Source: a virus | Length of the DNA: 48,155 nt | Direction: 5' to 3' (one strand) | IMG/VR virus record: IMGVR_UViG_3300035698_002941 | Location: 1 to 48,155 of that record | In this document: one piece after another, positions 399-48,155 of the stretch | Numbering within the stretch: position 1 is the first letter of the stretch | Layout of the letters: every line of letters starts with the position of its first letter | Notes under the pieces: model-generated | The model's input: the letters and a program-made list of their open reading frames with translations, nothing else | Told to the model about the DNA's origin: nothing | Database searches by the model: none | Program-made: the position numbers and the translations under genes

Positions 399-689
399 TT
401 AGTCGGGGAATGTTGAGGACATAACCGCTAAGAACTCTAATTGAATTAACGGCAATAAATCACTGTCCATTAATTCAGCGTAGGTAGCGTCCGGCCATCG
501 TGCAATGAGTCGAGCGGCATCAAGATCGTAGTCCGACGCATGCATGCGAACACGGTCGAGATACCGGTAGGGGCCGTAGCAATTACATTTGTGCCACACG
601 AGCAGGTGGTGATATTCCGGCATAGTGTTAATGAAATAGTTCATACCTCTAAATGTCAGCGTTACTCCGCTGTTCAGTTTAATTTTCAT
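399..689 (-). CDS. Hypothetical protein, 96 aa
   Basis: The start codon at 689 overlaps the stop of the upstream zinc-ribbon gene (TAATG), so it is probably translated by reinitiation. The product is rich in Tyr, His and Asp and has no membrane segment or signal peptide. A short Cys-Asn-Cys stretch near residue 35 is too little for a zinc site by itself. It lies between the four-module zinc-ribbon gene and the hexapeptide gene in the early unit. I do not recognise the family. Confidence 0.65.
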   Translation of the reverse strand: MKIKLNSGVTLTFRGMNYFINTMPEYHHLLVWHKCNCYGPYRYLDRVRMHASDYDLDAARLIARWPDATYAELMDSDLLPLIQLEFLAVMSSTFPD

Positions 690-1528
690 TAGTGTTTATC
701 TCGTTGAGATGCTTGGCAGTGGGGACAACCACCATTACGTTCGCTCAAGTGAAGTTCAGGAGTGGTGAGAAAATCACCGTGCGATGGGTTAGTGCAACGG
801 ATGGTGACGATGTGACCGGACGGTACTGGCTCGTTGTACGTAAAGCGGTGTTCATATTTGTTCTTAGCTTTACTAACCCATTTGCACTGATAACAACCGC
901 CGTAAGGTGATAGCAAATGTTTGAATGGTGCAATTAAAAAAGAATGCTTATGATTGACGCACGTCACCGTCGAGGGGGTGACTCGATCAATGTAATCAGT
1001 ACCATAGTCGAATCGATAGGCATGTTTGTGACGTGCCGTTTTCACCCAGCGAACTCGCAACGATGGTTGCCTGGCGGGTTGACGACACTGGTTGCAGTTA
1101 CCGCTGGGTGAATTCATGTGAGACTTAAGGGTTGCCATGAACGGCCCATGCTCTCTACAAATGATGGTCACCTCTACGTCTCGCGAAATGTAATTGGTGA
1201 TTTGAGAATAAGTAAACCTGCCATCAAACTTGCGGGTGGCCCTGGTTGTAATAGCGGTAAGTCTTGAGTGATTGCGGCAGGACTCACAACCACCGTAGAT
1301 CGAATTGACATGACGGAAAGGTGTAGTGGTGAACTCGATCTTAGGATGTTTAATACACCGCACTAACATCTCATCACTGGCGCGAATGCGACCATCGTTG
1401 TGAACTCTGATCTTATAGAAGAATTTATCTTTACCGTGAGTCTTGTTGAACACGAAGTGAAAGTATGAGATTTCCCGATATTCGCTCATCGGGAGTGTAA
1501 AATGTCTTGGCATTGGACGCTCGATCAT
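689..1528 (-). CDS. Four-module zinc-ribbon array protein
   Basis: The first gene of the leftward unit, about 279 aa. Four successive modules of about 50 residues each carry an aromatic F/Y-x-Y strand, then a C-x(2-4)-H-H/G-x-F stretch, a conserved His, and a final G-G-C-x-x-C (or G-N-C-x-x-C) pair. This treble-clef-like pattern is known from zinc-binding segments beside phage and mobile-element endonucleases (DUF723-like), but no nuclease domain is fused here. DNA or RNA binding is inferred. A paralogue with three modules is at 47147-47785. The start is uncertain: ATG 1528 is used, but the frame is open to a TTG at 1570, and neither has a good ribosome-binding site. Confidence 0.75.
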   Translation of the reverse strand: MIERPMPRHFTLPMSEYREISYFHFVFNKTHGKDKFFYKIRVHNDGRIRASDEMLVRCIKHPKIEFTTTPFRHVNSIYGGCESCRNHSRLTAITTRATRKFDGRFTYSQITNYISRDVEVTIICREHGPFMATLKSHMNSPSGNCNQCRQPARQPSLRVRWVKTARHKHAYRFDYGTDYIDRVTPSTVTCVNHKHSFLIAPFKHLLSPYGGCYQCKWVSKAKNKYEHRFTYNEPVPSGHIVTIRCTNPSHGDFLTTPELHLSERNGGCPHCQASQRDKH

Positions 1529-1566: not shown

Positions 1567-1636
1567 TCAAACATAGTACTTAGTTGACGAAAACACCCCC
1601 ATTATTATTTTTAACGACACGCTCTAATTAGGTAGT
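1567..1636. repeat. Left arm of 70-bp inverted repeat
   Basis: The reverse complement of this arm matches 1789-1858 at 67 of 70 positions. The three mismatches are clustered in a six-base patch, where this arm has a run of five C on the plus strand. The outer end is TCAAACATAGTACT, the inverted form of the 14-mer shared by three sites here. Confidence 0.92.
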
Positions 1637-1669
1637 ATTTTCACAACGCTCTCAACGATAACCGACACC

Positions 1670-1683
1670 TCAAACATAGTACT
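1670..1683 (-). promoter_or_regulatory. Third copy of the AGTACTATGTTTGA motif, leftward
   Basis: On the minus strand this 14-mer is followed after exactly 10 nt by ATCGTTGAGAG (1659-1649). The same two-part arrangement occurs in the opposite orientation at 1845-1858 and 1869-1879. The shared spacing suggests a promoter/operator unit used in both directions. The embedded TACTAT could be a -10 element, but the -35 match is weak. Confidence 0.5.
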
Positions 1684-1788
1684 TTGTTCATTATTACATT
1701 AGAATCATTCTAAAAATACGACCATTGATTTCATTGAAGTTTTTATTAATATTATCATTTTCTAAGAGAGTATATAGTAATTGAGAAA

Positions 1789-1858
1789 ACTACCTAATTA
1801 GAGCGTGTCGTTAAAAATAATAATGTAGATGTTTTCGTCAACTAAGTACTATGTTTGA
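1789..1858. repeat. Right arm of 70-bp inverted repeat
   Basis: This arm pairs with 1567-1636 across a 152-bp AT-rich centre. It ends in AGTACTATGTTTGA (1845-1858), and ATCGTTGAGAG follows at 1869-1879, just before the small terminase gene. Confidence 0.92.
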
Positions 1859-1919
1859 GCATACGGCCATCGTTGAGAGTATTTTTTCGCCATCGATAAT
1901 TACCACTTTTCGTGAATAA

Positions 1920-2522
1920 TTGAATGACGATCATAAAACTAGAGATTTGAGAGGCGGTTATCGTTTTAAATCCGACCAGTGGTACACTACTCAAAACGTA
2001 ATTGAGTGTCTTAAAATGACTGCCGAATTTTCACCGCTTCAGACTGAAGCATTTTGTCGCCACTTTGTGCAGGAAAAGCTGTGCGCTCCAGGTGAGGTCA
2101 CATTGAATGAATGCTGTGCGGCCTCTAACATTGCCGTTGAGCGTGGTGTGATCATGATGAACGATCTAACAACTCAGGTAAGGATTGAAGAATTGAAAGC
2201 TGAGATGTACGACGTGCTCAAGATATCACCCAATCGCACGCTGGTAGAAGTGAACCGGCTGGCGATGTCGAGCCTGAAAGATGTGCAGAATGAATGGGGC
2301 GGCATACTACCGCCTGCTATGATGGATGATGATGTTGCCGCCACCGTTAAGAAGTACAAAGTGATTGATGGTAAGTTCGGCAGCAGCACTGAGATCGAGC
2401 TTCACGACAAGAAAGGTTCGCTCGACATGTTGATGAAACACTTCAACCAATACGAAGCGCACAAGCAAGCGGGCAGCAGTGACATTCATGTGACCATAAG
2501 CGATAAAGATGCTCAGCTCTGA
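1920..2522 (+). CDS. Terminase small subunit (putative)
   Basis: The first gene of the rightward late unit, 200 aa. It directly precedes and overlaps the large terminase gene by 14 nt, the usual place for the small, DNA-recognising subunit of the packaging motor. The product is mostly helical and charged: residues about 35-75 look like a helix-turn-helix-type region, and the middle (90-120) is a further helical segment. The frame opens at a TTG at 1920 with no strong ribosome-binding site, and no ATG in frame lies near, so the exact N-terminus is uncertain. The assignment rests mainly on position and size. Confidence 0.75.
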   Translation: MNDDHKTRDLRGGYRFKSDQWYTTQNVIECLKMTAEFSPLQTEAFCRHFVQEKLCAPGEVTLNECCAASNIAVERGVIMMNDLTTQVRIEELKAEMYDVLKISPNRTLVEVNRLAMSSLKDVQNEWGGILPPAMMDDDVAATVKKYKVIDGKFGSSTEIELHDKKGSLDMLMKHFNQYEAHKQAGSSDIHVTISDKDAQL

Positions 2523-3876
2523 CACAAACTTTACTCTCACTAAGGCACAAGATCGTGCGATGGACGTGCTCGCAAGTGACGCGCTTCACATCGCAATTGG
2601 TGGTGGCGCGCGCAGTGGTAAAACGTTCATGCTATGCCGCGCTGTATTGGTCAGAGCCATTCGCGCACCAGGATCACGTCACGCAATTTTTCGTCATACG
2701 TTCACTGCACTGAAGGCGGCGATCATTTATGAAACGATGCCTGATGTGATCGCTGCGTGCTTCCCAGGCTTGCCATCAATGGACATTATGCTGAATAAAT
2801 CAGACTGGTTCATGACGTTGCCTAACGGCAGTGAGATATGGTTCTGTGGATTGGACAGCAAGGAACGTACTGAGAAAGTTTTAGGAAAAGAATACTGCAC
2901 GATCTACTTTAACGAAGCGTCCGAAATTCCGTACAGCTCTATCGTTATCGCATTGACGCGACTCGCGCAAAAGTCGCCAGTGCTGCGACTGAAAAGCTAC
3001 ACTGACTTTAACCCACCATCAAAAGTTCACTGGACGTACAAACGATTCATTGAACATGAAGATCCTATCGATCGCACGCCGTATCCTGATCCGTTCAAGT
3101 TTCGATACTTTAGAATGAATCCGAAAGATAACGCGGTGAACTTAGCGCCCGAATATTTGAGTGAATTAGACAACTTACCGGAGCGTGCTCGTAAGCGTTT
3201 TCGTGACGGTGAATTCGCTGATGCTGCGGTCGGTGCGTTATGGACTGTCGAAGACTTGGCACTGCACAGAAAGCTAGGACATGATGAAGACAATCCACTG
3301 CCGCAATGGGTGCGCATTGTCGTTGCTGTTGATCCAAGTGGAACGACTGGTGATATCGATTCTCGTAGCGATGATATCGGCATTGTGGTCGCTGCGTTAG
3401 GTCACGATAATCACGGCTACATGCTCGAAGATTTAACAGGTCAGTACTCGCCGGAAGAGTGGGGCTTGTTGGTCGGTGAAACATACAAACGTCACATGGC
3501 TGACTGCGTGGTTGGCGAGTCTAACTATGGGGGTGATATGGTCAGAGCGATCGTTCACGCTCATGATGATACGATCAATTACAAGCCCGTTGTGGCCACT
3601 CGCGGCAAGACGATCAGGGCTGAACCGATCTCATCATTGGCCGCTCAAGGCAAGATTCACATGGTCGGACACCACACATTGCTTGAGGATGAGCTAACAG
3701 GTATGACCACCAACGGTTACACTGGCACACGATCGCCTAACCGCGCTGACGCCTATGTTTGGGCGTTCACAGAGCTATTCCCAGGTATCGTAGCCCAGCA
3801 TGAGAAGCACGGCGACAAGCCACCTAGAGTCATTACACCCCCTTCTGGTGCCTCACGATTTGACCGTTCGATCTGA
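2509..3876 (+). CDS. Terminase large subunit (packaging ATPase/nuclease)
   Basis: 455 aa, a usual size for this family. The ATPase domain shows Walker A GGGARSGKT at 31-39 and a Walker-B-like stretch ending in Glu136 (YFNEASEI). The C-terminal RNase-H-like nuclease domain shows candidate metal ligands Asp275 (VAVDPSG), Glu337 (VVGESNYGG) and Asp414 (NRADAYVWAF). The enzyme drives DNA into the procapsid at the portal and cuts the concatemer. Its ATG at 2509 lies inside the end of the small-subunit gene. No truncation is seen. Confidence 0.95.
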   Translation: MLSSDTNFTLTKAQDRAMDVLASDALHIAIGGGARSGKTFMLCRAVLVRAIRAPGSRHAIFRHTFTALKAAIIYETMPDVIAACFPGLPSMDIMLNKSDWFMTLPNGSEIWFCGLDSKERTEKVLGKEYCTIYFNEASEIPYSSIVIALTRLAQKSPVLRLKSYTDFNPPSKVHWTYKRFIEHEDPIDRTPYPDPFKFRYFRMNPKDNAVNLAPEYLSELDNLPERARKRFRDGEFADAAVGALWTVEDLALHRKLGHDEDNPLPQWVRIVVAVDPSGTTGDIDSRSDDIGIVVAALGHDNHGYMLEDLTGQYSPEEWGLLVGETYKRHMADCVVGESNYGGDMVRAIVHAHDDTINYKPVVATRGKTIRAEPISSLAAQGKIHMVGHHTLLEDELTGMTTNGYTGTRSPNRADAYVWAFTELFPGIVAQHEKHGDKPPRVITPPSGASRFDRSI

Positions 3877-32063: not shown

Positions 32064-32537
32064 CTAAGCATTGATTCTATTCAACCACCATTCGTCGGGA
32101 TTAATTCGTTTACCTTCCAACCACACTTCAGCATGGACGTGAAGCGGCATGCCATCGTACACAGCATCCAAGTCTTGCACCATGCCGATCACATCACCCA
32201 TATTGACATGACTGCCGACTGTTGCGTTCGGATGAGGTGATACGTAAAAGTAACGAACTTTAGTCTGTTGACCAATGTCCAATTCGACATAGCGCATTCC
32301 ACGCTTTGCCAGGAACCGTGACTTTTGTTCAGGCGTGTAATGCCCGCTAGGTCCAGCTTGGCTGTACGGGAATCCAATCTTGCTAACGGTCGCATAGAAT
32401 GGTGACACGACCGCATTGCCAACATCCGCTAAATAGTCTTGCCCGTTATGTAAGCGGCCACCACGACTTGCGCCGAAATGTCCTTGACCCCAATCATCAC
32501 TGCCGCGCTTTTTAGCGTGCGTCTGAAGTATAACCAC
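32064..32537 (-). CDS. M23-family peptidase, probable endolysin
   Basis: 157 aa from a GTG at 32537 with GGAGG 6 nt upstream, overlapping the polymerase gene by 26 nt. LytM-type zinc ligands are visible: His30 and Asp34 in R-L-H-N-G-Q-D, and the H-x-H pair His133/His135 in M-P-L-H-V-H-A-E-V-W. These enzymes cut peptide bonds in peptidoglycan. There is no signal peptide, so a holin is needed for release. The single-domain, compact form fits a Gram-negative host endolysin. It is unusual in being coded in the replication unit. Confidence 0.85.
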   Translation of the reverse strand: MVILQTHAKKRGSDDWGQGHFGASRGGRLHNGQDYLADVGNAVVSPFYATVSKIGFPYSQAGPSGHYTPEQKSRFLAKRGMRYVELDIGQQTKVRYFYVSPHPNATVGSHVNMGDVIGMVQDLDAVYDGMPLHVHAEVWLEGKRINPDEWWLNRINA

Positions 32538-34419
32538 CTGTAGCCTCCGCTAGTTCTCTAGCTTTCTGTAAGTAATAGTTGTAATTGATCGGCTCTATCG
32601 CATCGATCATGTTATTGCATTCGGTCACGCGCCAGCCACTGTCGATTGCTTCAGTGGAGTCAGCGTAGATCGACTCGTTCTTAGTGTGAATACCCTCAAC
32701 GTGAACACCTGTTTGATTGACAGCGTGATACATCGCATTAGTCACACCGTTCGCTTTTTTGTAGTCGCCAATCTTCATGCCTTTAGGGGGCGGCATTATC
32801 TTAGTCAGATAGTCACCCTCATGCGTAATGTAGTAACGACTGACACGTTGAATCTCACGGTCGCCCAGCTTCAATATTGTATTACGTGGAACTTTAACTC
32901 TTAAGCAGAAGTCGAATATGTCAGTGTGATTCAATATAGTGTGCTCCAGGCTAACACCATTCACTAGCAACTGTTCGACAGCGATAGGTACGATCATTGC
33001 TGATTGATTCTGGTGCCACTGCCGATCATGTTCGTAAGCGCCTTTCAATTTCACCTTCCCGTCAGTACCGATCGCAACGTAATTATTCACGTCACGAACG
33101 AACATTGAATCATACTCAACATGTTCAAGTTCTAACAGTGTGAATTGTTCCCATCGTTTGCACACATCTTTGACGCGAGCGTAATCGCTACGAGGTATTC
33201 GCATGGTCATGCCGTCAGTGTTGATCTGAATCATTTCAACCGCCAACCACTCAGCGAGCATACACAACAACAGTTGACCATTGATCGTAATGGCCATCGT
33301 GTACAGTGGGTCATAGAACGGTGAGTACTTGCTGTTGCTGTCACCGTACACGCCATTGAGCGCCAGCTTCAGCATGGCATTCTCAGCAGTACCCTTCGCA
33401 TAACCGCGACGCTGTTCATAAACGTCATTGTATATTTTACAAAACTCTTCGCCCAGGTGAGCGGGGTAAATCTTATTTGCGATAGCTAAGTTCGGATAGT
33501 AACTGGCGACATCGATATCAACGATCATTGTGTCATCGGTGGAGTGGAACGACTCACCTTTAACACTGCCGTGAATGCCGCCAAGACCGAACACATATTT
33601 GAAGCTGTTCACTTCACAATTTATATTGTCGAACACGCCTTTCGTTTGCGTGATGGTTTGCGACTGGAACCAACGGTGGATGCGTTTGAATTCAGGATGA
33701 TCGAATGTGACGTATGGAAACACAGCTTCGGCAAGGTTGATGGTCGGGCGTTTAGTTTGTATGGGTTGCTTATTACCGTCGAAACATTTCACACCGTGAT
33801 CTTGCAATCGCATGATGAAAAATTTCTTACCAATCTTCGTGTCGTTATAGTTGGTGAAGTCATGATCGTAACGTTCGCTCAGCTCATCACGAAAGTTAAT
33901 TTGATCCATGCTCTCAACGAGAAACTTTTTAGTTTCGTTCACGTCGTGCTTGTTGTACTCAATCAACATGTCCATCTCAGGCTCAGTCAATATCGTACCA
34001 GGAGGGAACGGTAAATCCTGAATTGAATGAGAGCGCATCGCGTATTCCAATGCTTTCAGGCTGGTGCTGCGGGCCATGTTATCGAAGTGGTGAATCTTAA
34101 ATAGATCGACCTGTCTGATCTTGATGTCCCACGGTGGCGGCATGTGCTCACGATCGTTGCACTGATTGATGATCCAATCGGCCAATTTGTACGAGTAGTC
34201 AATATCGCACACACCATTACACTCGATCATCTTGTGAATGATAGGGTAGTCGAAGTGCAAATTGTTGTACCCGACCATACGATCGTCAGTGGCCGCGAGA
34301 TGTTGAAGGTATTCCATGAGCAACGGCATATCATTGCGCCGATGTGAATACTCCCATACGTTATCTTCGATCGTGCAAGTGAAGATGTTAGGGTATGTCT
34401 CTATGTCATATACTTTCAA
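32512..34419 (-). CDS. DNA polymerase, family B, with 3'-5' exonuclease
   Basis: 635 aa, short for the family. Exo I is D5-x-E7 (Y-D-I-E-T-Y-P), Exo II is Y-N-N-L-H-F-D-Y-P at 51-59, and Exo III is Y155-N-K-H-D159. Polymerase motif A is D301-I-D-V-A-S-Y-Y-P-N, motif B is K351-L-A-L-N-G-V-Y-G, and motif C is N400-T-D-G. It replicates the phage genome together with the primase-helicase and the SSB-like protein of the same unit. The start is a TTG at 34419 preceded by an AGGTAGG site; no nearby in-frame ATG precedes Exo I. No protein-priming TPR insertions are obvious, and no terminal-protein gene is recognised. Confidence 0.92.
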   Translation of the reverse strand: MKVYDIETYPNIFTCTIEDNVWEYSHRRNDMPLLMEYLQHLAATDDRMVGYNNLHFDYPIIHKMIECNGVCDIDYSYKLADWIINQCNDREHMPPPWDIKIRQVDLFKIHHFDNMARSTSLKALEYAMRSHSIQDLPFPPGTILTEPEMDMLIEYNKHDVNETKKFLVESMDQINFRDELSERYDHDFTNYNDTKIGKKFFIMRLQDHGVKCFDGNKQPIQTKRPTINLAEAVFPYVTFDHPEFKRIHRWFQSQTITQTKGVFDNINCEVNSFKYVFGLGGIHGSVKGESFHSTDDTMIVDIDVASYYPNLAIANKIYPAHLGEEFCKIYNDVYEQRRGYAKGTAENAMLKLALNGVYGDSNSKYSPFYDPLYTMAITINGQLLLCMLAEWLAVEMIQINTDGMTMRIPRSDYARVKDVCKRWEQFTLLELEHVEYDSMFVRDVNNYVAIGTDGKVKLKGAYEHDRQWHQNQSAMIVPIAVEQLLVNGVSLEHTILNHTDIFDFCLRVKVPRNTILKLGDREIQRVSRYYITHEGDYLTKIMPPPKGMKIGDYKKANGVTNAMYHAVNQTGVHVEGIHTKNESIYADSTEAIDSGWRVTECNNMIDAIEPINYNYYLQKARELAEATGGYTSDAR

Positions 34420-35503: not shown

Positions 35504-36337
35504 TTATTGCCCAGGTATCCCATGCACTCCAGGCGTTAAGATCGCAGGGTTAGGTTGCCCAGGCACCACGCCAGCAACAGCAGCAACCGGTGCAGTAGGG
35601 ATCGCAGCGGCCACAGGTGCCGCAGCAACTGCCGCTGGCGCACCAAGCACAGGTGCCGCTTGCGTAGGGACTACGGGTGCTACTCCAGGTATCACTGGCG
35701 CTGCGGGTATAGCACCAGCAATGGGCGCTGCTGACATTCCGACTGGCATGTGAGCCACTGGAGCTGCTGCCAATAATGCCGCGCCATCGGGACCGAAATG
35801 AATCTCAGGACCGAAGCCCATGAACTGAACAAAATTATGATTTAGATACAATCCAGGGTCAGCCGGATCACCGTTACCCGCAACGTTGCCAATGACTCGA
35901 ACAAAGTATCCACGCTTAACTGACGCGGGGTCGATCATGACACTCGCGGCATCTTGAGCGTAGACAGTAGGTTTGAATGAGCTACCAAACTGAAACACGA
36001 AGTGACCGGCAAACCCTTCGCGCTGATTGTAAGGCTGGCCAGTACCCGTCAGTGCTGTATCACCATCCAGAAATTTCCACCGGAATGTTGGAAGGTTGAA
36101 CTGACCGCCAGGAAATGACGACTGTGCCGCTTGTGTTAACAGTGCATAGAATGCGCCAAGGTCGGGATTATCTTTAGCGATGGCTATGCCGAAGTAATAA
36201 TCTTCTCGCGGTTGACCGGCATTAGCGCCAGTTTTAAACACTAAAGGTGCGCCTTTCTTGTCGGTGGTGTTGGGGGTCCAGATGCTACCCTGAATCCAAC
36301 GTCCGACTGGTGATACAAACTCAATTGCTTCTGACAT
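35504..36337 (-). CDS. DUF2815-type single-stranded DNA-binding protein
   Basis: 277 aa; AAGGA lies 10 nt before ATG 36337. The opening P-V-G-R-x-x-x-G-S-I-W-x-P followed by K-x-G-A-P-L-V-F and Y-Y-F-G-I-A-I-A-K is the signature of DUF2815-like proteins, OB-fold ssDNA-binding proteins of phages, as is the Q-F-M-G-F-G-P-E segment. The last ~85 residues are an Ala/Pro/Val low-complexity tail unlike the acidic tail of T7 gp2.5. It should coat single strands during replication. Family assigned by resemblance. Confidence 0.8.
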   Translation of the reverse strand: MSEAIEFVSPVGRWIQGSIWTPNTTDKKGAPLVFKTGANAGQPREDYYFGIAIAKDNPDLGAFYALLTQAAQSSFPGGQFNLPTFRWKFLDGDTALTGTGQPYNQREGFAGHFVFQFGSSFKPTVYAQDAASVMIDPASVKRGYFVRVIGNVAGNGDPADPGLYLNHNFVQFMGFGPEIHFGPDGAALLAAAPVAHMPVGMSAAPIAGAIPAAPVIPGVAPVVPTQAAPVLGAPAAVAAAPVAAAIPTAPVAAVAGVVPGQPNPAILTPGVHGIPGQ

Positions 36338-38978: not shown

Positions 38979-41636
38979 TCATTCACACATCCTCATTATA
39001 TATTCGCTAACACGACCGTTGAGTTGTGACGCGGCGGGCTTACCTAATGTTTGGGCGGTCATTATGTCCACACCGAACAGCAGGTAGAACATTCTGTATT
39101 GCTCACTCGTTGAACGACCGTGCTGAATTTGGAAAGCTGACCACCATGAAATGTTGTCTCGTAATGACTGTTGCGCTAATTGTTTTAGTGTTATCTGTTT
39201 AGCGGCACTGTAGGCCGCTACTGTCGGAGCACCAGCGGCCAACATATTATCGCGTGTGACGCTCGCTGGCAAATCTACTTGCTCAACGTCAGCTCTCATC
39301 GCGGCCAAAGCAGCGGGAGTCAGTTCAAGTAAGTCACCATCAACGAACTCAATTCGATCGCGGCCTTGCGGAATGTGAATTGTTTTACAGTACGGGCACG
39401 CGCTGTAGGTACGCTCGTAAGGCTGAGTGCATTCCACACAGTAGCGCAACGGTATCCCATCGTCAGGGTTAACAAACGCTGGTGTCTTCTCACGCGCATC
39501 GAGCGACCATATTCTAGGCTTGTCGGGCAGACCGTGACGCATGACATTACCAACATGATCGATGATCAATGCCATTAACTTACCTTCCAATGTGCGTAAT
39601 GAACGACCGAACATTTGCACGAAAAGTCCGTAGCTAAATGTAGGCCGCGCCATAATAACCACTTCAATAGCGGGCAGATCGAAACCCTCACCGAATAGAT
39701 CGACGTTGACCAATAGATCGAGCGCGCCATTAGCTAACTGTTTGATTGCACCTTCACGTTCGATCGTTGGCGTACCAGCGTGAACACACTTGGCGCGAAC
39801 TCCAGCGCTATTGTAACGGGCGGCCATGTCGTCAGCGGTTTCAACGTCGGTGGCAAATACGACACCTCGCTTACCCATCGCGAATCGCTTGTAGTGTTCA
39901 ACCACATCGCCCATCAGGTGAGACTTACGTACAGCGATTTTTAATTGCTTAGCTTTGAAGTCGCCGGTACTGCCTTGCTCAACTTGACTGACATCCAGGT
40001 CGGACGGTGGGCAGACAATACGATAGTCACTCAGGTAGCCTTGATCGATCAGCCAGCGCATACCTGGACCCTCAACCAATACGTCCATCAATCCGTCGGT
40101 TGCACGGCCTAATCCTTGACCGTCACTGCGCGTTGGTGTGGCGGTCACCCCCAACCCACGGCATTGAGGGTGAGTCATGTGAGCAATGGCTTTACCGAAA
40201 GTGTTAGCTTCCAGTAAATGATGCACCTCATCTTGTACCCATAGTGTGATCGATCGTAACCATGATTGCAGTTCATGAGCACGAGCGTTAAGCGTTGCGA
40301 CACCGATCACACCGTGTCGTGCTTGCGGATCGTAATAGCTGCGACCGAACCGATCGATGTGATCACGTATTATTAACTTGCGTACACCGTCCGGTGCGAT
40401 AATTTTATGAGTAACGCCGTAACTGGCGAGCGCTCTCGATATTTGCATGACCAGCTCTTGACGATGGGCAATGGCAACGGCTGCACCTTTGTGATTCATC
40501 ATGATGTGAGCGAACACGATGGTATTGTGCACCACGGTAAAATCATCAAGTAAAAATCTACTATTACCATTTACGGTGACCCCCATATAGAAGTCTTGAC
40601 CAACCTCGCTCACCGTAAATCCTGTCCTCAATAGGTTTCTGTTGGGTTTTTGGTTATGAGGTTTTCGACGCTCGACTAAAAATGGAATATCAGACCAGTC
40701 ACCTGTAATGCTCAATCTATGGTAGCCGACATCGTTGACAATTTTTACAGACCTTAAAACTCTGAACCCTAAACTTTGAGCTATGGTTTCAATACCATCA
40801 GCCACAGTCGCATGCTTCTGACATATTTCGTGAGACCCGTTATGGTAATAACCGTCAGTGTCCAGAATTCCCGCGAGCAGGCTTCGCCGCTGTTCGACCG
40901 ACCCCGTTATGGCGTAATGAGGTATCACTTTCTGAGAACCTAGACCGAAATGATCACGTAAAAAATTAAGAAAAGGATTGGGGTTTGCACCCTTCCCTGA
41001 TGAGATTGAAAATGTAGGGCAATCACCTTCTCTAATCTTCTTGCGGTGAAGCTTTAAATTATTATCGTGACAAAATTGCTCAAGGTAATGGTGAATTTCG
41101 AAATCAGCATTTGTTATTTCAGGCGTTTTAGTAGTTCCACCGCCCAACCATAAACCAATCATGTAAGGATCATACTTCCAAAGGTCGGAATGCTCCCATC
41201 CTTCAAAACCTGTAGCGTACTGTTTCAGAACATGCTTTATGAATTTGGGTAGTGACAAATATTCCTGTAAACCTATATCGTGCCGTGAGTTTTTCGTAAA
41301 ACGCTTATTAACATTAGCGTTGCAGACCAATGAAAGTATGTGACCTTGATTGCAATACCACGCCTTACCTTTCACGGGTTGAATTTTATATATCGTTGAG
41401 TACCCCAGATCGGCATTTGTTACTGTACGTGACTTGTTATCATCACCTAAAAGCAAATCACCAACCTTCAGTTCACCAGCCTTCCTGACTGTACCATCGT
41501 ACATCATGACGTTTTGATTCACCCAAAGACATTTTCCACCGCCTGTAGCGAGCACGGCGCACACATTGCGAGCGCCGTTATCCCAATGATCGTAAATGTC
41601 GTCGACTAAGTCTTGTTGGTAAGGTCTAAGTTGCAT
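38979..41636 (-). CDS. SF2 DEAD-like helicase interrupted by an intein
   Basis: 885 aa as read, about 549 aa after removal of the intein. The N-terminus L-R-P-Y-Q-Q-D-L-V and motif I A-T-G-G-G-K are separated from the following T-I-V-F-A-H by a 336-residue insertion (residues 36-371). After rejoining, the motifs are motif II D-E-V-H-H, motif III G-V-T-A-T-P-T-R and motif VI Q-M-F-G-R-S-L-R, followed by a four-Cys zinc ribbon (C-V-E-C ... C-P-Y-C). It likely unwinds DNA for replication or recombination. The gene sits in the replication unit near nuclease genes. Without splicing the Walker A loop is broken and the ATPase would be dead. Confidence 0.92.
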   Translation of the reverse strand: MQLRPYQQDLVDDIYDHWDNGARNVCAVLATGGGKCLWVNQNVMMYDGTVRKAGELKVGDLLLGDDNKSRTVTNADLGYSTIYKIQPVKGKAWYCNQGHILSLVCNANVNKRFTKNSRHDIGLQEYLSLPKFIKHVLKQYATGFEGWEHSDLWKYDPYMIGLWLGGGTTKTPEITNADFEIHHYLEQFCHDNNLKLHRKKIREGDCPTFSISSGKGANPNPFLNFLRDHFGLGSQKVIPHYAITGSVEQRRSLLAGILDTDGYYHNGSHEICQKHATVADGIETIAQSLGFRVLRSVKIVNDVGYHRLSITGDWSDIPFLVERRKPHNQKPNRNLLRTGFTVSEVGQDFYMGVTVNGNSRFLLDDFTVVHNTIVFAHIMMNHKGAAVAIAHRQELVMQISRALASYGVTHKIIAPDGVRKLIIRDHIDRFGRSYYDPQARHGVIGVATLNARAHELQSWLRSITLWVQDEVHHLLEANTFGKAIAHMTHPQCRGLGVTATPTRSDGQGLGRATDGLMDVLVEGPGMRWLIDQGYLSDYRIVCPPSDLDVSQVEQGSTGDFKAKQLKIAVRKSHLMGDVVEHYKRFAMGKRGVVFATDVETADDMAARYNSAGVRAKCVHAGTPTIEREGAIKQLANGALDLLVNVDLFGEGFDLPAIEVVIMARPTFSYGLFVQMFGRSLRTLEGKLMALIIDHVGNVMRHGLPDKPRIWSLDAREKTPAFVNPDDGIPLRYCVECTQPYERTYSACPYCKTIHIPQGRDRIEFVDGDLLELTPAALAAMRADVEQVDLPASVTRDNMLAAGAPTVAAYSAAKQITLKQLAQQSLRDNISWWSAFQIQHGRSTSEQYRMFYLLFGVDIMTAQTLGKPAASQLNGRVSEYIMRMCE
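40524..41531 (-). mobile_element. Intein with LAGLIDADG homing endonuclease in the helicase Walker A motif
   Basis: 336 residues begin with Cys (C-L-W-V-N-Q-N-V-M-M-Y-D-G) and end V-V-H-N before a Thr +1 residue, matching intein blocks A and G. Block A continues with K-A-G-E-L-K-V-G-D, block B carries C-N-Q-G-H-I-L-S, and block F is F-Y-M-G-V-T-V-N-G-N-S-R-F-L-L-D-D-F. Two LAGLIDADG-type helices are seen: Y-M-I-G-L-W-L-G-G-G and L-L-A-G-I-L-D-T-D-G. The first has lost the usual acidic residue. Only about 3 GATC sites occur here, against about 15 in a neighbouring kilobase, supporting separate origin. Confidence 0.95.
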
Positions 41637-43127: not shown

Positions 43128-43198
43128 GGTAAAAACCTCACGCTCATACATGCGGCAATACCTGCCGTGAATATTATTGATGGTAGTTGTTTAATCAT
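43124..43198 (-). CDS. 24-aa hydrophobic peptide gene (candidate)
   Basis: ATG 43198 overlaps the upstream stop (ATGA) and has GGAG about 5 nt upstream. The stop overlaps the next GTG. The peptide has a hydrophobic core, S-I-I-F-T-A-G-I-A-A, with a Lys at the start and an Arg near the end. Its placement in an unbroken chain of overlaps is the main evidence; length alone would not support it. Confidence 0.4.
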   Translation of the reverse strand: MIKQLPSIIFTAGIAACMSVRFLP

Positions 43199-43293
43199 TG
43201 TCCTCTCCAATCACGCCACACGATGGTTGCAAGTGCGGCAATAGCGATCGCCGTTCCAGTGCCAACTAATGCAGCTTCAATATAAAATGTCAT
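43195..43293 (-). CDS. 32-aa single-helix membrane protein
   Basis: ATG 43293 overlaps the upstream stop (ATGA) and follows GAGGAAG. One hydrophobic helix (A-A-L-V-G-T-G-T-A-I-A-I-A-A-L-A-T-I-V-W) is followed by a basic R-D-W-R-G tail, a clean type of small inner-membrane protein. Function unknown. Confidence 0.55.
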   Translation of the reverse strand: MTFYIEAALVGTGTAIAIAALATIVWRDWRGQ

Positions 43294-43451
43294 TTCGATA
43301 TCTTCCTCGGTGCTGCCGGTATATGGCTTATGTTAAAACCTTTGGGCAGTGACGGTGTAAATATTCGATCACTGGAACGGCGATTGCCTTGTCGCACGGT
43401 ATCAACTTCCTTGTGAAAATTAGCGATATCATTCGCTGTCAGCTTTCTCAT
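43290..43451 (-). CDS. Basic 53-aa protein
   Basis: ATG 43451 lies 23 nt inside the upstream gene, and the stop overlaps the next ATG. The first half is helical (K-L-T-A-N-D-I-A-N-F-H-K-E-V); the rest is basic with Q-G-N-R-R-S-S-D-R. No motif recognised. Confidence 0.55.
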   Translation of the reverse strand: MRKLTANDIANFHKEVDTVRQGNRRSSDRIFTPSLPKGFNISHIPAAPRKISK

Positions 43452-43761: not shown

Positions 43762-44415
43762 CTAACCGGATGAGTGCGCGCCAGTACCGTTGGTCGGGAT
43801 AGGTAATAATTGAGTGGCGAGCGCGTTGGCAATACCGACGTATGTCCGGCTGCGTTCTTTCCATCGATCGTCTGACGGCCCTAATCTGTTTTGCCCGCTA
43901 TCAGTTTGATTAGACCATCGTTCAGCATTACCAACTATGCGTCCAGGCACACGCTTTGTAGGTGTGAGATGTTCGATGGGACCGTGCATAAATAGCGCTG
44001 TTTTCTTGCTGGCATCATCACCGAATTGATAAGGTTGTACGTATTGAGGTTTGGGCAATGGTGCATAGGTTTGAGTAGTTAGCACACCGATTGGGTTTTC
44101 CATCACTACACGTTTGCACCAGAATTTACACAGATAAAATAGATCGACCGTTTCTACAATGGCTCGCAATCGTTCGTCATGTCGAGGCTTACCAGCCGCG
44201 TACACATGATTACCACTAACACATAATTTAGTGCACGTCGGGTGAATGATGATCAAGTCCCAATCCAGGTGAACATAATTATGAACGTCACCTATGTAAT
44301 GATGAGGACTGTTGTCATCGCTCGATAGCAAGTCACAACTGTAAGCGTCATGACCCAACGCTCGGAACGCTTCACGAGTAACACCGCTTGTCTCACACCC
44401 TATCAGTACTCTCAT
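43762..44415 (-). CDS. Cytosine DNA methyltransferase-like protein
   Basis: 217 aa; ATGA overlap with the primase gene. The start R-V-L-I-G-C-E-T-S-G-V-T-R-E-A-F matches the SAM-binding motif I of phage C5-methylase-like proteins, with a D-L-L/D-V motif after. The catalytic-loop region reads H-P-T-C-T rather than the usual P-P-C, and M-E-N-P-I-G supplies the E-N motif. It could modify cytosines or another substrate; a catalytic Cys is present but displaced from the canonical context. No restriction partner is adjacent. Confidence 0.75.
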   Translation of the reverse strand: MRVLIGCETSGVTREAFRALGHDAYSCDLLSSDDNSPHHYIGDVHNYVHLDWDLIIIHPTCTKLCVSGNHVYAAGKPRHDERLRAIVETVDLFYLCKFWCKRVVMENPIGVLTTQTYAPLPKPQYVQPYQFGDDASKKTALFMHGPIEHLTPTKRVPGRIVGNAERWSNQTDSGQNRLGPSDDRWKERSRTYVGIANALATQLLPIPTNGTGAHSSG

Positions 44416-46841
44416 GGCAGTGGTAATGTTGGTTCACGATAGTACACGTCGAACACTGGCGTACCCGCTAGCATTCTAGGTTCGAGCTTGAAGCGTTGTG
44501 ACAGTGCGGTTTGCAGGCGTCGTGAATCTTGTTGTGTGGGTTTGTCGTAGCCTAACATTTTGAGTATTGCTGACGACGTGAGCATTTGTTGAGTAGTGCC
44601 AGGGTCGGGCGTGACGCTGTAGAATTTAGTGAAGTTATCGATCATTGGGTCTTGATCGGTGTGCGCGGTGTTGACGCTGTTGAGGTTGGATGACTCAGCG
44701 TCCGTAAGATAACATTGCTCGCCCGCTAGATAGTAAGCGTAGGCTTCGGCCCATAGCTGCGACAAATCAATACCGTGATTGAAATTAATTTCGCCCAGGC
44801 ATGGGATAGTCCAGAAACGCCGGTTGCCAGTAGGGTCATGAAGGAAGTTGCGGCTGTTGACGGTGGCCATGAATACTGTACGACGCGGATGTTGAATAGC
44901 GCGGCGATCGTAAGGTGCTCGATAGTTGTCAGTGTCGGTAGTGATGAACGACTTGAGCGATGATATAGCTGACTGTCGGAAGGTAGCGTCAAGCTCACCT
45001 AGCTCACACATCCAATACATCAACACCGTCATAATTGAATCTTTGTTCTCAGGGTTGACAGCGACGCCATCCAATCCCCATGTCGGATCAGGCAGTAGTG
45101 ATCTAAACCAACTGGTTTTACCAATACCTTGACCACCTTGCAGCACGATCAATCCGCTGGACTTAACACCACGCTCGTTCATGACAGCAGCGACCGCGCC
45201 GATCATCCAACGCATTATCATGATGCGATTGAATTGAGGGTTGGCAGTGGGTATGCAGTCAGCTAATTGAGCAATGAGTGAGTGCCCACCGGCCCAGGGC
45301 TTGTTAGCGACCAGCCAATCTTGAACAGGATGATATTGATTCTTCTCAGCGATGGCATCTAACTTTCTGGGTATGCCGTTGGTAAGCTGAATGTCGTGCC
45401 GGTTGGCTTTGGAAATGATTTCAGTGTAGTAGCTGTTTTCACTTACGTCAGGGATGACATTGCCGCTGAATTCAATCTGCTTTGTCATACGATTGTAACG
45501 AACGACAATACCGTAATGATTAAGTAGTTGTTCTACATTTTCAACCGTCATTTTAGGTTTACCAGTGGTGGTGATGTCAGGAAATGTTAACCCACCTAAC
45601 GATTGAGTATTGCCGTGCACGGGCATGATGGCCGCAATGATGGCTGACTTGCTGACGGTAATACCAACGTCTTTGCCACGAGCGTACAGTAATGCCGACA
45701 GTACGTGACGGTCTGCGTCTTCAAGTTCAGTGTCACGAATAGTACGCTGCAACTTACTCATAGCCGATGGGTTGCCTCCCAACGAATTAACCATCTCGAT
45801 CAACGTGTCCAGCGCTTCAGTGTAGTCATTGGTCTGTGCCATGTAGTCATCAACACTGTCCCGAAATGACTGCGCGGTGCCGACCAATGTGTCAGGTGTG
45901 TCGGTGCTGACATGTTCTGTAGATAGCGCCGGTGGCATGAAGGGTTGCGGCGCGTCAGTCATGGTCGATCGCTGGAGTCGTTCTATTGCCGCCGTTGGTT
46001 TGTAGCCTTGACCACGTGCACGCCATACAAGTGAGCCAATGGTGATCGGTTGTACGTCAGCCGATTTAGGCTCGGGTGACAGTGCGTAATATTGACGGCT
46101 GGCATCGGCGCTGCCTTTGTAGCTGTCGTCTGTGGCACTGGCTGACCACGCATCGAACACTTGCAAGCCTTGCTCGGGTGAACTGGAGTAATGGTTGCGC
46201 AATGCAGCAGCGACCGCCATCCAACCGGTATAGCCACGAGTGCTCGGTATGAACGTGAGCATTTCAACGATGTCGTCATGGCAGTAAATGGTGGGTGGTT
46301 GGTCGGGTGTCAATATGCTTGAGGCTTCAGGAGATGGCGCTGACGGCTTAGTAAGCATCATCACGGCCATTGGCGGCAGGACCGGCAGCATTGACGGCGT
46401 GGCGAGCTTGAGCAATCCTAGACCGTCAGGTGAGGGGGTGTAACCAGGACCGGTGGCAATGTAGCCTTTGCCGGTGGTGCGCGTGTCGAATCCCTCACCT
46501 AGAATATCAGTAAACCAATTGGTGGTTTGATGAATGGTCGCATCCGGTGGCAACGCAAATGCGTAATGTTGACCACCGTGCAATGTGCTCTGAAGATGGG
46601 CCGCTTGCCAGTTGAGTGCATGACCGAAGAGGGTGTCAATGGCCGTAGTGGTGAGCGCGGGCGATTTGTAGGTATCGAGATCAATGATGGTAACGCCTAC
46701 TGGTACGGCGATGCCGGTAAAGTCGGTATTGGATGGTATTGGGCTGGCTGACTTGAAACCGTTGCTGCCCGCTTTAGGCGTTCGATTGGCCGTCAGCGGA
46801 AATATTGAAATGCCTGCGTTGGCTAGTTGAGTGCCATTCAT
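44412..46841 (-). CDS. Primase-helicase: PrimPol domain plus VirE/SF3-type helicase
   Basis: 809 aa. The N-terminus (about 1-165) is a bifunctional primase-polymerase domain with the metal-binding pair Asp54/Asp56 in I-I-D-L-D-T-Y and a later G-G-Q-H-Y-A-F. A middle helical linker leads to a virulence-associated-E-type helicase: Walker A L-Q-G-G-Q-G-I-G-K-T-S-W near 560-572, acidic C-E-L-G-E-L-D-A near 600, sensor-type F-M-A-T-V-N-S and G-N-R-R-F-W. It primes and unwinds at the replication fork and is the key partner of the family B polymerase. No ribosome-binding site is evident before ATG 46841. Confidence 0.9.
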   Translation of the reverse strand: MNGTQLANAGISIFPLTANRTPKAGSNGFKSASPIPSNTDFTGIAVPVGVTIIDLDTYKSPALTTTAIDTLFGHALNWQAAHLQSTLHGGQHYAFALPPDATIHQTTNWFTDILGEGFDTRTTGKGYIATGPGYTPSPDGLGLLKLATPSMLPVLPPMAVMMLTKPSAPSPEASSILTPDQPPTIYCHDDIVEMLTFIPSTRGYTGWMAVAAALRNHYSSSPEQGLQVFDAWSASATDDSYKGSADASRQYYALSPEPKSADVQPITIGSLVWRARGQGYKPTAAIERLQRSTMTDAPQPFMPPALSTEHVSTDTPDTLVGTAQSFRDSVDDYMAQTNDYTEALDTLIEMVNSLGGNPSAMSKLQRTIRDTELEDADRHVLSALLYARGKDVGITVSKSAIIAAIMPVHGNTQSLGGLTFPDITTTGKPKMTVENVEQLLNHYGIVVRYNRMTKQIEFSGNVIPDVSENSYYTEIISKANRHDIQLTNGIPRKLDAIAEKNQYHPVQDWLVANKPWAGGHSLIAQLADCIPTANPQFNRIMIMRWMIGAVAAVMNERGVKSSGLIVLQGGQGIGKTSWFRSLLPDPTWGLDGVAVNPENKDSIMTVLMYWMCELGELDATFRQSAISSLKSFITTDTDNYRAPYDRRAIQHPRRTVFMATVNSRNFLHDPTGNRRFWTIPCLGEINFNHGIDLSQLWAEAYAYYLAGEQCYLTDAESSNLNSVNTAHTDQDPMIDNFTKFYSVTPDPGTTQQMLTSSAILKMLGYDKPTQQDSRRLQTALSQRFKLEPRMLAGTPVFDVYYREPTLPLP

Positions 46842-46904: not shown

Positions 46905-47144
46905 TCAGTTGCGGTCATCGTCATCTATTCCTATGGGGTTGCGGTCAAGTTCACTACGGATATGTTTGGACATTGCAGGCGTGAGTGTGCCGTTATTTTT
47001 ACGCTCGACTACTTCAGCTTTGATGGCCTCAAGTTCTTGATTGTGAATTTTAACCAATTCCAGCAGCGCTAATGCGTGCTTGTAATATTGACGCCTACTG
47101 GTGCGATGAACCTTAAGTAGCTTACGCAATTCTCTATCGGTCAT
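46905..47144 (-). CDS. Basic helical protein, 79 aa
   Basis: The frame is open from 47246, but ATG 47144 has GGGGGAG about 6 nt upstream and begins just after the zinc-ribbon stop, so it is preferred. The product is helical and charged (R-E-L-R-K-L-L-K, then L-A-L-L-E-L-V-K-I-H-N-Q-E-L-E), with an acidic end D-D-D-D. It could be a small DNA- or protein-binding regulator. Family not recognised. Confidence 0.62.
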   Translation of the reverse strand: MTDRELRKLLKVHRTSRRQYYKHALALLELVKIHNQELEAIKAEVVERKNNGTLTPAMSKHIRSELDRNPIGIDDDDRN

Positions 47145-47146
47145 CG

Positions 47147-47785
47147 TCATCTCCCCCTTGATATTTTGACGCAGCGTGGGCAACCACCGTTTTTCAACTC
47201 CGCGTGGTGACGTGCCTTCACTGCAAACGGACCATGATCGCGACAAACAACCATAACGTTCTTACACCGTGAGACGTAATTAGCTCTCGTGTATATGAAT
47301 CGATCACCGTGCGCGGTAGCAGCATCCTTGAGCCATTTGATGTGATGCGGAATTTGTCGGCAGCTCGGACAACCACCGTTGGGTGACTGATGATGGTTGA
47401 TGGGCGACGTATTGAAGTCGCCGTGCGTCTCGCCGGTAATAAAATTAACACTCGTGCAAGTGTAAGTGGCTTTAGTTTGCCACTCGTCTGCTTTGAATCG
47501 GTCATACGTGAATTTATCACCGTGAATAGCTTTCGATTTTTTGACCAAATTGAATTGAGTAATTGATTTAAGACAACCAAGACAACCACCGGAATTGAGT
47601 GGTGACTCAATATGGCGCTGAGCGCGCATTATAAAGTCGCCGTGAATTGCACAAGTGATCGTTGTGTTCTCATGCGCGCTGCGGTAAGTGGCGTAGTTGT
47701 AACGAAAGCGATCACCGTGGCGCGCTTTGGCTCTCGCTATCCATTTTACTCCACGCTTCTCCAATGTTGTTAGGTTGGGATTCAT
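47147..47785 (-). CDS. Three-module zinc-ribbon array protein
   Basis: 212 aa; the start overlaps the stop of the hexapeptide gene (ATGA). Three modules repeat H-G-D-R/K-F-x-Y, then C-x(2-12)-H-G-D/P-F, a conserved His, and G-G-C-x-x-C. It is clearly a paralogue of the four-module protein at 689-1528 and resembles the zinc-ribbon segments of phage and mobile-element endonucleases, but again lacks a nuclease domain. Nucleic-acid binding is inferred. Confidence 0.77.
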   Translation of the reverse strand: MNPNLTTLEKRGVKWIARAKARHGDRFRYNYATYRSAHENTTITCAIHGDFIMRAQRHIESPLNSGGCLGCLKSITQFNLVKKSKAIHGDKFTYDRFKADEWQTKATYTCTSVNFITGETHGDFNTSPINHHQSPNGGCPSCRQIPHHIKWLKDAATAHGDRFIYTRANYVSRCKNVMVVCRDHGPFAVKARHHAELKNGGCPRCVKISRGR

Positions 47786-48155
47786 TGATCGTACCTCAAC
47801 TTGTGATGATCAGCGATGGCTTTGGCACCTTCCAAACACGCTACCGTAATGGGTCGTGATTCACGTTTACGTTCCCAATGATTGATTGCATCGGCAAGTG
47901 TGAACCAACGGCAACCTGCGCCTACCCACGCTACACCGTCAATGTCGCAAATTAATTTAGAATAACCTTCAGCATGACACCATACGGCTGTCCACCTGTG
48001 TTTACCCGCATGTAAAACACCGCCGGTCATGCTGCTGTTGCCGGTCATGCTGCTGTTGCCGACCATGCTGCTGTAGTCGTGCATGCTGCTGTAGCCGTGC
48101 ATGCTGCTGTTGCCGTGCATACTGCTGTTGCCGTACATGCGGCTGTTGCCGACCA
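47782..48155 (-). CDS. Hexapeptide-repeat solenoid protein, C-terminal part (starts at the left end of the window)
   Basis: The frame runs in from the window edge with M-x-G-N-S-S repeats, then leaves the repeat at M-T-G-G-V. The C-terminal ~80 residues read H-A-E-G-Y-S-K-L-I-C-D-I-D-G and A-G-C-R-W-F-T-L-A-D-A-I-N-H-W, a small domain that caps hexapeptide solenoids in other phage proteins. It joins the minus-strand gene starting at 335. Function unknown. Confidence 0.75.
   Translation of the reverse strand, partial: VGNSRMYGNSSMHGNSSMHGYSSMHDYSSMVGNSSMTGNSSMTGGVLHAGKHRWTAVWCHAEGYSKLICDIDGVAWVGAGCRWFTLADAINHWERKRESRPITVACLEGAKAIADHHKLRYDQ
48059..48155. repeat. 97-base overlap identical to bases 1-97
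   Basis: The final 97 bases equal the first 97 exactly. The overlap continues the reading frame of the hexapeptide gene, so it marks circular closure of the contig (circularly permuted or terminally redundant DNA) rather than a natural genome end. Because it lies in the 90-bp repeat, collapse or expansion by the assembler is possible. Confidence 0.9.

Follow-up and report, generated by a model that had tools for sequence, protein, structure and literature searches.

A Long Mirror-Image Repeat between Early and Late Genes as a Candidate Replication Origin in an Uncultured Phage

Introduction

What is the role of a long, nearly perfect inverted repeat that lies where the early and late genes of a phage diverge? 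The repeat occurs in IMGVR_UViG_3300035698_002941, an uncultured virus of bacteria (a phage), and the window analyzed here is the entire virus record of 48,155 nt. An initial annotation of this DNA suggested that the repeat could be a symmetrical promoter switch, a replication origin, a packaging site or an invertible segment. We consider that the 292-bp element, together with its flanks, is a phage replication origin, with a probability of roughly 0.6; a role solely as a promoter, as a packaging site or as an invertible segment is less likely. What makes the origin the most likely reading is that phages whose copying enzymes are related to those of this virus have repeats of similar build close to the genes for these enzymes.

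The Genome and Its Largest Gap

The record is ~97% coding and has a GC content of 49%; Rfam and tRNA scans gave no match. The rightward genes extend from ~2.0 to 30.1 kb and include the terminase, the connector, the capsid and later genes, while the leftward genes occupy the stretch between 48 and 30.3 kb as well as the first 1.53 kb of the record. The largest non-coding gap (1529-2015) is the divergent early/late junction. On its left is the first gene of the leftward operon, which encodes a repeated zinc-ribbon/HNH-like protein of phrog_559 (689-1528, minus strand). On its right are the genes for the terminase small subunit, TerS (PF03592, phrog_51; 2016-2522, plus strand), and the terminase large subunit, TerL (2509-3876, plus strand). 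The gap ends at 2015 if TerS starts at an internal ATG at 2016, and it ends at 1919 by the ORF caller, which starts the gene at 1920.

The two record ends overlap by 97 bp inside a gene made of 18-bp repeats, and therefore the circular closure of the record may rest on a repeat. These 18-bp repeats (47782-48155 and 1-335) are organised in a higher-order unit of 90 bp, and the leftward gene that contains them is split by the record ends. Nearby, zinc-ribbon-like modules (HGDxFxY ... C..HGxF ... GGCxxC) of the phrog_559 HNH family are repeated in two minus-strand genes, 689-1528 and 47147-47785.

The Repeat, Its Third Copy and Its Unstable Centre

The two 70-bp arms with 67 matches that the initial annotation described are located at 1567-1636 and 1789-1858 (67/70), and the repeat does indeed sit at the early/late divide beside the terminase, where it fills the largest gap of the record. 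As stated there, the mismatches of the 70-bp arms are confined to one small patch, at 1596, 1598 and 1599 only (CACCCCC versus CATCTAC). Ungapped extension produces arms of 77 bp (1567-1643 and 1782-1858) that match at 72/77 positions, with additional mismatches at 1637 and 1640. The centre between the extended arms (1644-1781, 138 bp) is AT-rich, as had been noticed, with 28% GC compared to 49% for the record. The inverted-repeat score is 66, whereas none of 20 shuffled versions of the region scored above 16.4, and the next-best inverted repeat outside the region in the entire window scores 16. Folded as a single strand, the element has an energy of -72.8 kcal/mol (z = -18.7).

The outer end of each arm is a 19-bp element, AACTAAGTACTATGTTTGA. 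Copy 1 (1567-1585, minus strand) is a candidate initiator site and/or leftward promoter, and copy 2 (1840-1858, plus strand) points rightward. A third copy with one mismatch lies in the loop (1670-1688, minus strand); it points leftward, in the orientation of the left arm. This third copy is part of a 40-nt unit (1649-1688, minus strand) that is 82.5% similar to 1840-1879 (plus strand), and so the repeat unit extends past the outer end of the right arm. Taken together, the third 19-bp copy and the 40-nt unit indicate that the element consists of three related blocks around an AT-rich core, two left-facing and one right-facing.

The 19-bp element has no copies in the window beyond these three, and the non-coding DNA of the window has no further iteron-like or large inverted-repeat region. 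A 277-bp gap at 43152-43428 contains an 18-nt inverted repeat (94%; 43244-43261 and 43370-43387) across 108 bp. Iteron-type origins have initiator repeats, an AT-rich unwinding element and an initiator-type protein encoded by the replicon. For the first of these, the window offers three 19-mer copies and long mirror arms without a short iteron array; the best exact 7-mer in the window has four copies. A search for degenerate short iterons found AT-rich 8-12-mers in 7-11 copies, versus a shuffle maximum of 5-8, with no clear unit.

The unstable centre of the element corresponds to the AT-rich unwinding element. By nearest-neighbour energy, positions 1677-1826 are the least stable 150 bp of the entire record by a wide margin and would be a candidate DNA unwinding element, and the least stable 60 bp are at 1740-1799. 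In fact, for window sizes of 60, 80, 120, 150, 250 and 400 bp alike, the least stable stretch of the record lies in the element. GC skew is confounded by gene direction and does not settle the position of an origin.

Replication Proteins

The initiator-type protein is encoded at 44412-46841 (minus strand) and consists of an AEP primase, a PriCT_2 domain and a VapE-like helicase. If the record is circular, this gene is ~2.8 kb from the repeat across the record ends, and we infer that its product is the cognate initiator of the repeat. The AlphaFold model of the protein has a mean pLDDT of 51, and its N-terminal primase fold alone is usable; the predicted strand-helix-helix-strands pattern at the C-terminus might, weakly, be compatible with a winged helix. 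In PrimQH-type primases, a C-terminal winged helix has been suggested to recognise the origin (PMC5862659).

Three other leftward genes (all minus strand) encode further proteins that act on DNA: a DNA polymerase of phrog_1252 (32512-34419), a Gp2.5-like single-strand binding protein (35504-36337) and an SF2-type helicase ORF (38979-41636). The last has Hint and homing-endonuclease domains near its N-terminus and so probably carries an intein.

Similar Layouts beside Related Primases

The element itself has no match elsewhere: a DNA search of phage records with the element and an exact 19-mer scan of IMG/VR gave no match, and no relative was found by a TerL search of GTDB genome contigs or with the window VapE and TerS proteins, each as a single query in IMG/VR. 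With no close relative in the collections, the element can be compared by position and layout only. The comparison across related phages that the initial annotation proposed thus came out divided: the layout recurs and the sequence does not. Several of the comparative choices described below were made post hoc, with the data already seen.

Full-length homologues of the primase (~30% identity) are encoded by Vibrio phages 1.009.O, VP16T and CKB-S1 and by Pseudoalteromonas phage PY6. Phages 1.009.O, CKB-S1 and PY6 have GGGGCAC-type repeats and an AT-rich core in a 400-600-bp gap upstream of the primase, and VP16T has GTGCAC repeats and an AT-rich core in its primase-upstream gap. The records of these four phages carry no origin annotation for the repeat regions. 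In the full-length VapE-type Vibrio homologues, the iterons are mostly on one side of the core and are not mirrored.

When the window primase and its Vibrio homologues were used to scan IMG/VR, 27 loci were obtained. In eight of these (L191-L196, L201 and L202), iterons of opposite orientation flank an AT-rich core that is 0.4-2.7 kb away from where the primase starts; the left copies mostly point left and the right copies mostly point right. Mirror arms match at 46/47 positions around a 220-bp centre in L191, at 25/26 in L193 and at 53/72 in L192. Where the proteins of mirror-armed loci were checked, the Prim-Pol and PriCT_2 half is common with the window protein, the helicase half is D5-type and the identity to the window protein is only 22-24%. 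In addition, among 25 loci, the window included, 22 have their least stable 60 bp within the repeat region; these regions were picked mainly by their repeats and their position relative to the primase or TerS, not by instability. It is this comparison that lends support to the origin reading of the initial annotation, since phages with a related primase have a symmetric repeat and an AT-rich core at a like junction or beside the primase.

Structural Relatives

Other relatives were found through their capsid and TerL proteins (TerL identity of 45-60%). Many of these structural relatives have a gap before TerS with short repeats in both orientations, the sequences of which are unrelated between loci: AGGTAACA in L021, GCCCGTA in L088, ACGGGAC in L018, GTCCTTA in L034, TACCCCGCAC and CTCCTTAAG in L090, and GGGTA-type repeats in L002, L010, L049, L059, L085 and L097. 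The fragment L034 also has mirror arms of 98 bp (78/98 matching), 36 bp before TerS. L023 has a perfect 149-bp inverted repeat (1-149 and 736-884) at a contig end, which may have arisen as a fold-back artefact of the assembly.

In many relatives the repeats adjoin a motif, AATCAANNRCTTA, that fits the IHF consensus. The motif is more specific than that consensus and is found beside the repeats of L002, L085, L088, L090, L097, L191 and others. In the loci scanned, the exact consensus, WATCAANNNNTTR, occurs at 0.43 per kb upstream of TerS versus 0.05 per kb elsewhere, a 9-fold difference. The gap of the window contains no exact site, the best having two mismatches. A lone IHF-like match near 47,030 was considered as an alternative origin and was rejected, there being no repeats around it.

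Seven of the larger structural relatives encode an NrS-1-like PrimPol-helicase (PF22763 plus PF19263). By eye, six of the seven have repeats before TerS, the seventh (L052) being weak, and the IHF motif is present in five of the seven loci with this protein versus 3/27 others. Neither exact 7-mers (3/7 versus 3/27, p = 0.086) nor instability (p = 0.18) had a significant association with the NrS-1-type protein, and a link between the repeats and this protein is suggestive only. L021, L022 and their relatives have the AGGTAACA repeats before TerS and no detectable NrS-1-type primase.

Promoters in the Gap

Could the element be a divergent promoter or operator and nothing more? The three 19-bp elements would then fire the early and late operons from a mirror-image duplication that has no role in replication. 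Both operons have to start in the gap (1529-2015), the outward TACTAT sites are ~40 bp before the leftward gene and ~160 bp before TerS, and the three 19-bp copies are found nowhere else in the window. However, the TACTAT sites lack an acceptable -35 element. The initial annotation placed a strength-setting -35 element at the mismatch patch, and this proposal did not hold up: the patch is 16 nt before the outward TACTAT, yet the match to TTGACA is at most 3/6, the candidate hexamers being GTAGAT and GGGGGT, or TGTAGA and TGGGGG at a spacing of 17 nt. Likewise, a sigma-70 consensus scan that looked for -35 and -10 elements spaced by 16-18 nt made no promoter call at the TACTAT sites. Furthermore, a promoter has no need for 77-bp arms or for the 150 bp that melt most easily in the record, and similar elements are present at non-divergent junctions in the relatives L034 and L002. 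We regard a purely promoter function as rather unlikely.

What survives of the symmetrical promoter switch is the divergent role of the outer 19-bp elements, which is compatible with the data; the sigma-70 -35 elements are the part that found no support. Because both operons need a promoter in the gap, the outer elements may double as promoters, and the divergent promoters of the early and late operons probably lie in these elements or overlap with them.

Packaging

The repeat is directly upstream of TerS, the usual location of a cos or pac site, and the repeats of many relatives are also upstream of TerS, some of them with an IHF-like motif. The arms might therefore bind TerS, with a cut made nearby, as at lambda cosB or the SPP1 and P1 pac sites. 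The neighbours of the repeat regions speak against this, as no terminase gene adjoins the region in L193, L196, the Vibrio phages or PY6. These neighbours are nucleotide-metabolism and ParB/methyltransferase genes in L193 and L196, a neck gene in the Vibrio phages and winged-helix genes in PY6. In L191, L192, L194, L195, L201 and L202, the region separates the terminase genes from the primase-side genes, and the TerL families beside the repeat region differ (phrog_2, phrog_38 and phrog_3717). Moreover, three Vibrio phage records begin at an identical GTTTGGAAT, ~125 bp before TerS, which is likely a cos end, and the Vibrio-phage repeats are ~0.8 kb and one gene away from it. Hence the repeat region tracks the primase and not the terminase, which favours an origin and makes the packaging site that had been suggested improbable.

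Inversion and Assembly Artefacts

Near-identical inverted arms around a unique centre would also be expected of a flip-flop switch or of an inserted mobile element such as a MITE. However, no integrase, invertase or transposase was found among the early proteins scanned (a host enzyme could act instead), the arm ends have no target-site duplication and the record has no second copy of the element. Inversion would swap the non-coding loop only, and each outer element would still face the gene that it faces now. The invertible segment of the initial annotation thus went unsupported, and we think it very improbable. Finally, chimeric reads in metagenome assemblies can give rise to inverted repeats, but a fold-back chimera is hardly credible for arms that differ at 5/77 sites, have different flanks and are accompanied by a diverged third copy.

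How the Origin Might Work

By analogy with the SaPI/SCCmec initiators, with ori-lambda and with the suggested winged helix of PrimQH, we propose the following mechanism for the replication origin. Copies of the primase-helicase (44412-46841) would assemble on the mirror-image arms, and this assembly would melt the AT-rich centre between them. One helicase complex would be loaded per direction, and the phage polymerase and single-strand binding protein would then carry synthesis outward in both directions, along the early operon on one side and the late operon on the other.

Each of the known systems resembles the window in part. SaPI Rep seems to bind its iterons as two hexamers, and the putative origin bound by SCCmec Cch2 contains no more than three iterons (PMC7581432). 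Like the window, these SaPI/SCCmec-type origins, with D5/DUF927 initiator helicases, combine repeats with a self-loading helicase from the same element. However, they are directly downstream of the helicase gene and have short iterons, whereas the repeat units of the window are long mirror arms and the primase starts ~2.8 kb downstream of them. In ori-lambda, a 19-bp initiator site recurs as near-perfect inverted repeats beside an AT-rich opening region (PMC5043065), and the window likewise has 19-bp inverted-repeat sites next to an AT-rich region. The differences are that the four iterons of ori-lambda all lie within gene O, to one side of the AT region, and that the helicase is the host DnaB, whereas the arms in the window flank the AT centre and the helicase is phage-encoded.

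The NrS-1 polymerase initiates at sequence motifs such as TTTGGTTA (PMC8718748). Structural relatives of the window that encode an NrS-1-like PrimPol have inverted repeats ahead of TerS, in the gap, but the window has a Prim-Pol/PriCT_2/VapE primase and other repeats. As noted above, VP16T, CKB-S1, 1.009.O and PY6 share with the window a full-length homologous primase, and they have a 400-600-bp gap, inverted repeats and an AT-rich core. They differ in that their iterons are short and are placed for the most part to one side of the core, where the window has long mirror arms.

Implications

A wider proposal, which we offer tentatively and which may well prove wrong, is that phages with AEP primase-helicases have an unnamed class of origin, in which outward mirror arrays of initiator sites surround an unwinding core, often at the junction between the terminase and early genes. 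The window would be the form with a single long mirror repeat, one helicase per direction and firing along both operons, so that the start of replication would be coupled with the early/late switch.

Origins are unknown for most phages that are available only from metagenomes. If the origin reading of the window is right, a simple rule, namely an AEP primase-helicase together with mirror repeats that surround the least stable DNA of a genome, would locate origins in many uncultured phages. The rule would also cover cultured Vibrio phages, where it is directly testable, and it would show that the repeats of an origin can change completely and that the symmetric layout is retained.
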